DNA from: Streptomyces sp. MST-110588
GTDB taxonomy: Bacteria; Actinomycetota; Actinomycetes; Streptomycetales; Streptomycetaceae
Length of the DNA: 64,000 nucleotides
NCBI RefSeq assembly: GCF_022695595.1
Contig: NZ_CP074380.1
Coordinates: 7,406,501 to 7,470,500, forward strand
Direction of reading: 5' to 3'
How positions within the stretch are numbered: the first letter of the stretch is position 1; each line of letters starts with the position of its first letter. The notes beneath the pieces are model-generated. The model had not been told where the DNA came from. It made no database searches and saw only the letters and a program-made list of their open reading frames with translations. A program made the translations under genes and the position numbers. Positions 15,015 to 53,662 of this stretch are shown here, piece by piece.

Positions 15015-17246
15015 ATGGTGGCGGGTGGTTCGGCGGCGCTGCGGGCGCGGGAGGCGCGGCGGCAGGAGCGGCTGTTACGGGAGCAGTGGCGGGCGGCCGG
15101 CAGGTGGGAGGCGGCTAGGGCGCTTCTGATGGATCTCCGCGGCCTCGCGACGCCCGGCACGCACCCTCGCCGCACGGCGCAAAGGGACAGGTGGCTCCGC
15201 CACATGACCCTTCACACCGCACGCCGAGCGCACGCACCGCACACCGCTCCGTCTTCCACGGAGATCCATCAGAAACGCCCTAGCGCGGGGGAGCGGAGCG
15301 TGGCCGCCCATCTGCTGATGCTCACCGAGCGGGGATGGCGGCTGCTCGTCGACCGGCGGTGGCCGGACACCCGTGCCGCGAACGTGGACATGCTGCTGGT
15401 CGGACCGGGCGGTGTCTTCGTCATCGACGTCAAGAACTGGCGGGCCGCCCCGGAGGTGTCCGGTGGTGTGCTGCGGGCCGGCGGCGAGTCACGGGAGGAC
15501 CGCGCGCGCAAGCTGACGGCGGTGACGAAGACGGCCGAGAGCGCGGTGGCGTCCCTGGGGCTGTCCCCGGTGGCCGTCCAGCCGCTCATGGTCTTCGCCG
15601 GCCGGCGGGTCGACGCCGAGCTGGGCCGCATCAGACTGCTGGGTGAGGGGCAGGTCGGACCGGTCCTGCTGCGGGAACCGTGACGGCTCCGTCCAGAAGG
15701 GGTGCGTGCCCTCGCCGATCATCTCGGGCGGGTCTTTCCCGAATACGAGGGTTCGGATGTCACGGAGACGGCACGCGAGCGCGCGCAGGCCCGGGAACCG
15801 GAACCCGAGGGGCTCTTCGATCTCGACGGGCTGCGCGAAGCGGCCGTCGAGGAGGCGATGCGGGCTCCGATCGAGCAGTGGATGACCTTCCTCGATCCGG
15901 ATCAGGTGGCGCTCGTACGGCGCAACTGGGCGGGCCCCGCCCGGATCAGCGGCCCGGCCGGTACCGGCAAGACGGTCGTCGGTCTGCACCGCGCCGCCCA
16001 CCTCGCCAGGCGCAACAGCGGCCGGGTCCTGTACGTCACTTACGCCAACAACCTGCCCCGCGTGCAGCACACTTTCTTGAAGACCATGTCTCCCGCCGTG
16101 GCCGACCGGGTCGACTTCCGCAGCCTGCATTCCTGGGCCCAGGAGTTCCTCCATGAACGCGGCGTGCCGGTCAGGCTGCACGGCGACAAGGCGGAGACGG
16201 CCTTCAGCCTGGCCTGGACGCGCGTGGGCCGCGGGAGCTGCCTGACCGAGATCGACCCCGTGCCGCGTTACTGGCACGAGGAGATCGACCATGTCATCAA
16301 GGGCCGCGGCATCACCTCCTTCGAGGAGTACGCCGCCGTGCGCCGGCGCCGCCGCCGGGCGAATCTGCGGCGCCCTCACCGGCAGGCGGTCTGGGCCCTG
16401 TACGAGGCGTACGAGTCCCTCCGCGACGAGCGCGGGGTGCACGACTTCAACGACGTCCTCTCACTGGCGCTGACCGCGGCTCGCCAGGACACCGGCCTGG
16501 CACCGTACAGCGCCGTGATCGTGGACGAGGTCCAGGATCTGACGCTGGTCGGAGTACGCCTGCTCCACGCCCTGGTGGGCGACGCCCCCAACGGGCTGCT
16601 GCTGATCGGGGACTGCCAGCAGGCGGTCTACCCGGGGGGCTTCCGCCTCTCCGACGCCGGTATCGACATCCGTGGTGGCCGTGGTCAGGTGCTGCGCGTC
16701 AACTACCGCAACAGGAAGGAGATCCTGGAGGCGGCTCTCGCGGTCGTCGCCGAGGACGCCTTCGAGGACATCGACGGGCGCTACACCTCCGGGCGCCGGG
16801 ACGTCGACCTGACACACCGCGACGGCCGGGTGCACCGCGTCGTACGGCCGAGCGTGGCCGAACACGACCGGGCCTTGCTGGACGCCCTGGGAGAGCTGTC
16901 GGCGCCGGAGCGGGGTGATACCGCTGTGCTGTGTCCTTCGATGCGGGCCATCGAGCGGTATCAGCGCCTCCTCTTGGGGGCCGGTGTACCCGTGTGTCTG
17001 CTGGAGCACTATGACGGCCGTACGGTTGCGGCCGTGAAGCTCGGCAGTTACCGGCGCGCCAAGGGGCTTGAGTTCAAGCGGGTGTTCCTGCCGTGCCACG
17101 ACACGGCCGGCCCGCAGTCCTCCCAAGGAGCTGACGCGCCCGAGACCGTACGGGAGCGCGAGGAACTCGCCCGCAGTCAGCTCTTTGTCGCCATGACCCG
17201 CGCCCGTGACGTCCTGTGGCTGGGCAGTGTCCGAGGGGAACGGTAG
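15015..17246 (+). CDS. NERD nuclease-related / UvrD-like helicase, interrupted by a MITE and an in-frame stop
   Basis: One reading frame runs from the ATG at 15015 to the TAG at 17246, broken only by a TGA at 15681-15683. The first part has a NERD domain (core NVDMLLVGPGGVFVIDVKNW near residues 123-142). The second has a superfamily 1 helicase: Walker A ISGPAGTGKTVVGL, Walker B VIVDEVQDL (DEVQD where DEAQD is usual) and motif VI FVAMTRARD. Both parts in a single frame fit the known NERD-helicase fusions of about 690 residues once the insert is removed. Residues 34-88 are translated from the inserted MITE and look unlike the family. Codon 21 is a TTA. If the TGA is real, the helicase could only restart at the GTG at 15702. 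A decaying gene is likely; a sequence error at the TGA is possible. Confidence 0.8.
15115..15283. mobile_element. CTAG-targeting MITE, copy 1, inside the NERD gene
   Basis: Non-coding element of 165 bp plus a 4-bp CTAG target duplication (CTAG at 15115-15118 and 15280-15283). Its ends are inverted repeats: left GGCGCTTCTGATGGATCTCC and, on the other strand at the right end, GGCGTTTCTGATGGATCTCC, one mismatch in 20. A copy with only two base differences lies at 53494-53662. CTAG target sites are known for some IS5-family (IS427-like) elements, so it is probably mobilised in trans by such a transposase (inference). Since 165 is a multiple of three and this orientation has no stop in frame, the host gene reads straight through it. 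Confidence 0.88.
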
Positions 17247-53464: not shown

Positions 53465-53493
53465 GCTGTGCCGTGGGGAATCACCGGCGAACG

Positions 53494-53662
53494 CTAGGGC
53501 GCTTCTGACGGATCTCCGCGGCCTCGCGACGCCCGGCACGCACCCTCGCCGCACGGCGCAAAGGGACAGGTGGCTCCGCCACATGACCCTTCACACCGCA
53601 CGCCGAGCGCACGCACCGAACACCGCTCCGTCTTCCACGGAGATCCATCAGAAACGCCCTAG
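53494..53662. mobile_element. CTAG-targeting MITE, copy 2, at a stop codon
   Basis: Same 169-bp unit as at 15115-15283, with two base differences (C for T at 53509 and A for C near 53620). CTAG flanks both sides (53494-53497 and 53659-53662). The right-hand CTAG contains the TAG stop of the leftward permease gene. Removing the element leaves GAC-TAG at the same place, so the coding sequence was not changed and the target was the stop codon itself. Confidence 0.88.

Follow-up and report, generated by a model that had tools for sequence, protein, structure and literature searches.

Small mobile elements of Streptomycetaceae appear to carry a strand-specific, long hairpin core, kept by compensatory change, between IS5-like ends that differ from element to element. 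One such element, a MITE of Streptomyces sp. MST-110588, lies inside a NERD-UvrD helicase gene in the 64,000-nucleotide stretch analysed here (the window). That insertion is real but ordinary, in a broken gene; the part worth following is the core family. The account that we favour, with good though not full confidence, joins three elements: recent spread of the MITE, chance insertion together with decay of the host gene, and an RNA-structured core carried between exchangeable ends.

The element and its copies

The inserted element (Table 1) has the features of a MITE: it is short and without a transposase gene, it has terminal inverted repeats and a TA duplication, it is multicopy, and its ends are common to a resident IS. 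It folds far better than shuffled sequence (DNA energy -50.5 versus -29.0, sd 3.1; z -7.0). Its length plus the TA duplication makes a net gain of 165 bp, or 55 codons. An earlier note on this DNA had reached the same gain by way of a CTAG duplication; the duplication proper is TA, and CTAG is only that TA with its adjacent letters.

A genome-wide search finds 17 full-length copies, 98-100% identical and scattered over the 7.9-Mb genome, in agreement with the earlier proposal of a MITE with related repeats and well beyond the two copies in the window. Every full-length copy measures 163 nt, 15 of the 17 have TA on both sides, and each differs from the family consensus at 0 to 3 positions. Because the copies are nearly identical, the spread looks recent; likewise the window copy looks young, since it departs from the consensus at only two positions, one of them common to five other copies. 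The element would thus be a non-autonomous IS5-type MITE that recently multiplied in this genome. Seven copies out of the 17 are located where script-called ORFs stop.

Partial forms occur as well. Locus L018 holds a 58-nt left-end fragment (1501-1558; G000:C1:7589667-7589724), and L019 a 57-nt palindrome that consists of two right ends with no core (1480-1537; G000:C1:7562914-7562970); close pairs of ends resembling this palindrome are present in a further genome, G038.

Table 1. Features of the element and its host gene, with positions in the window
Feature	Position	Strand	Remarks
MITE, 163 nt	15118..15280		flanked by TA dinucleotides
TA target duplication, left	15116..15117		
TA target duplication, right	15281..15282		
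Left terminal inverted repeat, GGGCGCTTCTGATGGATCTCCG	15118..15139	+	opening 15 nt shared with the IS in L031/L032
Right terminal inverted repeat, GGGCGTTTCTGATGGATCTCCG on the minus strand	15259..15280	-	
Conserved hairpin core, model R1	15144..15255	-	112 positions, 43 pairs; minus strand folds better as RNA
NERD-domain ORF, 222 aa	15015..15683	+	includes the 55 inserted residues; ends at TGA; Pfam NERD E 1.9e-13
In-frame TGA splitting the NERD-helicase gene	15681..15683	+	no stop in 27/27 homologues over the part compared
UvrD-type helicase ORF	15702..17246	+	same frame as the NERD ORF, just beyond the TGA
Second MITE copy (L005)	53497..53659		match 53493-53662, 99% identical; lies where a script-called ORF on the minus strand stops

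The genome also contains two elements of about 1.0 kb (815554-816554 and 7638761-7639762) that begin with the same 15 bases as the MITE ends and have TA on both sides; 15 of the first 16 bases are identical between the MITE and these elements (loci L031 and L032). L032 codes for DUF4096 and DDE_Tnp_1 parts, which we take to mark elements of the IS5 kind. On the strength of the matching ends, the mover of the MITE is most likely this resident DUF4096/DDE transposase. The two have the first 15 end bases and the TA flanks in common; the MITE is too short to encode a transposase, and no match to the MITE or to the core model was found inside the resident IS. Among 30 transposase loci fetched from eight other genomes none had ends like those of the local MITE, and plausible IS ends were seen in just seven; searches with single end types in six genomes gave short end pairs and, among the matches listed, no pair spaced by about 1 kb. 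Still, seven of the 24 end words taken from MITEs agree with one of eight from IS at 14 or 15 of 15 bases.

A compensated hairpin core

Between the terminal repeats lies the core. Alignment A1 joins 25 cores from the 30 loci L066-L095, their orientation set by similarity in sequence to the window copy; L071, L077, L079, L084 and L095 were left out as nested insertions or a repeat of another core. (In L071, L079, L084 and L095 a different GC-rich hairpin, of the CTCCCCCA..TGGGGGAG type, is nested inside MITE copies.) RNAalifold returns one hairpin of 43 pairs, 14 of which have changed on both sides. Of the cells in these pairs 97.6% do pair, versus 88.0% after shuffling and 28.9-56.0% in slid registers; double-change cells number 87 versus 27.8, a count that none of 500 shuffles reached. 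Over the full register (49 pairs, 24 distinct rows) there are 800 Watson-Crick, 258 G-U, 4 A-C and 111 other combinations.

The same pattern emerges along a tree of 55 sequences, where 52 pairs changed from one Watson-Crick combination to another, versus 1-7 in slid controls. Changes away from Watson-Crick went to G-U in 52 cases and to A-C in 13; the slid controls gave 26:16, 30:15, 39:8 and 14:12. Strand composition accounts for part of this G-U bias, since one of the four controls gave 39:8.

A second set was gathered by an exact pattern that fixes only the two arms and leaves the middle free. It comprises at least 80 records (78 Streptomyces, 2 Kitasatospora) with 67 distinct middles among the matches listed, of which 65 of one length were used. 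Read in the A1 register, 1108 of 1300 position pairs in these listed middles are standard, versus a mean of 904 and a maximum of 931 in 500 shuffles. G-U pairs outnumber A-C by 111 to 5, a ratio of about 22 for the matches listed, versus 1.1 to 7.6 in eight slid registers. Folded as RNA, the aligned strand is the better one in 56 of 56 distinct cores and, among the matches listed for the second set, in 73 of 73, by a median of about 33 kcal/mol; the second figure is partly built in, because the search pattern fixes G-U arms. The core thus has both compensatory change and specificity for one strand, the latter with a compositional component.

Model R1 places the core widely within the genus. 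In its own genome it finds 17 cores, each within this MITE. Across the genus it finds cores in 80 of 121 genomes (the own genome included, and some having supplied the model). Across the phylum, with stricter filters and few candidates scored per genome, it finds them in 6 of 296, all six of the same genus. A search with the whole element gives matches in 166 of 295 genomes, many to the inside only. The core is also present in Kitasatospora and Embleya. Plasmid records matching the element are six from Streptomyces and one from Embleya, where the match covers the core; none of the seven plasmid matches has a listed gene under it. No phage record that was searched matched the element.

The ends vary more. 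A script located them in 49 of 57 cores examined, four of the 61 loci outside the own genome having been left out (L093, L094 and L130 as repeats of other loci, and L078). Single linkage of 24 hand-chosen, distinct 15-base end words yields 19 groups at 14 of 15 identities, 13 at 13, 8 at 12 and 4 at 11; the ends therefore differ more than the core does. Within one element, left and right ends match each other.

Position relative to genes was surveyed at 81 distinct places among the matches listed, 20 of which were dropped as near locus ends and four as lacking flanking genes. By script, 52 of the 57 assessable places are intergenic, 23 of them between two gene ends. A link between the hairpin strand and neighbouring genes was considered and rejected: among the listed places downstream of genes, 31 have the structured strand in sense and 36 in antisense orientation. 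This lack of bias argues against a fixed link to host transcripts, and the function seems to belong to the element rather than to any fixed host transcript.

What the core may be

An RNA-level function of the element is the likeliest reading of this core, judged from its pattern of substitution. In the chief competing view the hairpin is maintained purely at the DNA level, for instance to bind a protein or to supply a single-stranded DNA form for transposition. The element is after all mobile, both arms hold GTGCGTGC on one strand, core orientation to genes is unbiased, and the G-U excess is partly compositional. Against it, the unconstrained middle has compensatory changes on both sides of its pairs; its ratio of G-U to A-C exceeds that of every slid register (matches listed); and IS5-type transposases act on double-stranded ends. 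On balance a DNA-only explanation is doubtful, though it deserves to be taken seriously.

A second competitor sees the compensatory pattern as a functionless by-product of palindrome correction. Template-switch correction of palindromes is known, and the two ends of any one element likewise keep matching each other. Yet conserved G-U pairs persist, as does a G-G mismatch kept in 22 of 25 cores, rather than being turned into perfect pairs. This explanation is improbable.

We return to an RNA-level function. Streptomycetaceae may then possess an undescribed structured RNA, a G-U-rich hairpin of about 100 nt that travels as MITE cargo across many IS5-like ends, with the module, not the ends, defining the family; on present comparisons the chances of this are about even. 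In our reading the elements form a MITE superfamily whose common part is a structured RNA module. As for the use of the core, our best though tentative guess, by analogy with what is reported for Correia elements, is that it serves as a double-stranded RNA processing signal in read-through transcripts and so limits harm to the host.

The insertion and its host gene

The MITE copy at 15118-15280 entered the NERD-UvrD helicase gene at a TA inside CTAG. The ORF is indeed open across it, as the earlier note had said, and the insert does contribute 55 residues, although by recount these are residues 35-89 and not 34-88. When the part after the insert was searched as DNA against 295 genomes of the genus (the own genome included), 29 loci emerged in other genomes (L037-L065). 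The 27 with both parts (L037-L063; L064, L065 and L149 were left out) provide the homologue alignment that had been called for. In all 27 the NERD and helicase parts form one frame with neither insert nor stop over the part compared, which is shorter for the stop check in L043, L054, L062 and L063. These homologues run EAAS-EGER or similar across the site, in keeping with the smooth ancestral join that had been proposed.

The location in a NERD-helicase gene was thus correctly seen, but the in-frame TGA at 15681 was missed. The TGA falls between the NERD and helicase parts, at a position that varies among homologues, and it is seen in one assembly. From this start, at most a 222-aa NERD fragment would be made. 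The helicase domain is recognised, as the NERD domain is. Of 200 columns that are invariant in the other sequences, the window helicase has an unusual residue at 2 (range 0-11 in 21 sequences). This is no excess, so either the break is recent or the helicase part may continue to be made by itself. In the NERD part, 3 of 40 residues are unusual, joint highest among 21 sequences.

Before it was split, the gene may have served in defence: its helicase part matches the PADLOC GajB and NERD+UvrD models. For the latter (C3a187) the match is at E 2.5e-20, and the homologues are NERD-UvrD proteins in one frame. However, the window gene is split, GajB has a slightly higher score, and no PADLOC model matches the NERD part, so a defence role is only a lead.

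In the phase nCT-AGn the MITE lacks stops in either orientation; the four remaining frames are closed. The net length is divisible by three as well, so the 55 codons would have been gained by chance. Four of the 17 copies lie in clear script-called genes (L001, L003, L007 and L012), and L003, L007 and L012 bring stops, one staying open. A fifth, L009, reads open, but by visual inspection the gene proper begins downstream of it; the called ORFs across L009 and L017 were rejected by eye as in-gene cases. With only one open case in four the frame looks like chance, and selection is not needed.

The earlier note had called this a clear case of a MITE turned into coding sequence. On that reading the cell produces and uses the enlarged NERD protein, and the helicase may be translated from its own start at 15702; the frame is open through the insert, the NERD domain is still recognised (E 1.9e-13), the helicase part has few unusual residues, and the two ORFs share one frame. 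The claim is not supported: none of the 27 homologues has the TGA over the part compared, the inserted codons have lower GC3 (0.76 versus 0.90 in the rest of the ORF), the copy is young, only one case in four is open, the NERD part has unusual residues, and the insert as sense RNA is predicted to fold at -85.5 kcal/mol. Functional coding sequence is therefore improbable here. Because the gene is also split by the TGA, insertion and decay describe the case better than domestication, and the insert is probably no new protein part, the gene being broken by a stop codon.

Least credible of all is a peptide of about 40 aa encoded by the structured strand of the core from a conserved GTG. Distinct cores in which the frame from the motif-matched GTG stays open for 29 codons number 53 of 53, and this frame often runs to the terminal TAG (the fuzzy match misplaced the start in a handful of rows, L068 and L089 among them, and three motif-less loci were dropped), yet the other-strand frame is open in 52 of 53 because the core is palindromic, and the middle residues vary widely and track pairing, on which grounds the peptide was rejected.

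Relation to known elements

A review (PMC10969869) describes in-frame MITE fusions in bacteria as not unusual and also treats Rickettsia palindromic elements (RPEs), the cleavage of Correia transcripts by RNase III, and small RNAs that derive from MITEs; its main text does not contain the word Streptomyces. The in-frame case adds little, since such fusions are already known. RPEs, as portrayed there, are likewise short palindromic mobile elements in frame within genes (PMC10969869). The window insert shares with them an in-frame passage without a stop. It differs in that its host gene is not otherwise intact, being broken by the TGA, and repeated in-frame insertions were not found, only one of the four clear in-gene copies being open.

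Correia and ERIC elements, compared by description, are also small and palindromic, and ERIC inserts at TA. In contrast, the elements here are GC-rich and have one core carried by differing ends. The comparison with Correia extends to the RNA level, where its transcripts are cut by RNase III according to the same review (PMC10969869).

Searches for the core itself returned little. Rfam gave no gathering match in eight loci, and in the window stretch only matches far below gathering; one, to a plant miRNA family (E 0.0021; 30.4 versus a gathering threshold of 150 bits), was set aside as a chance match to a long hairpin. Core sequence strings did not occur in open-licence papers, and nothing among the open-licence papers listed was recognisable as the core family. 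The hairpin is apparently an undescribed RNA structure.

If these observations hold, a strand-specific, compensated hairpin found across species and ends would imply selection on the RNA that a MITE carries as cargo. This raises the question of what a non-autonomous element would gain from an RNA.
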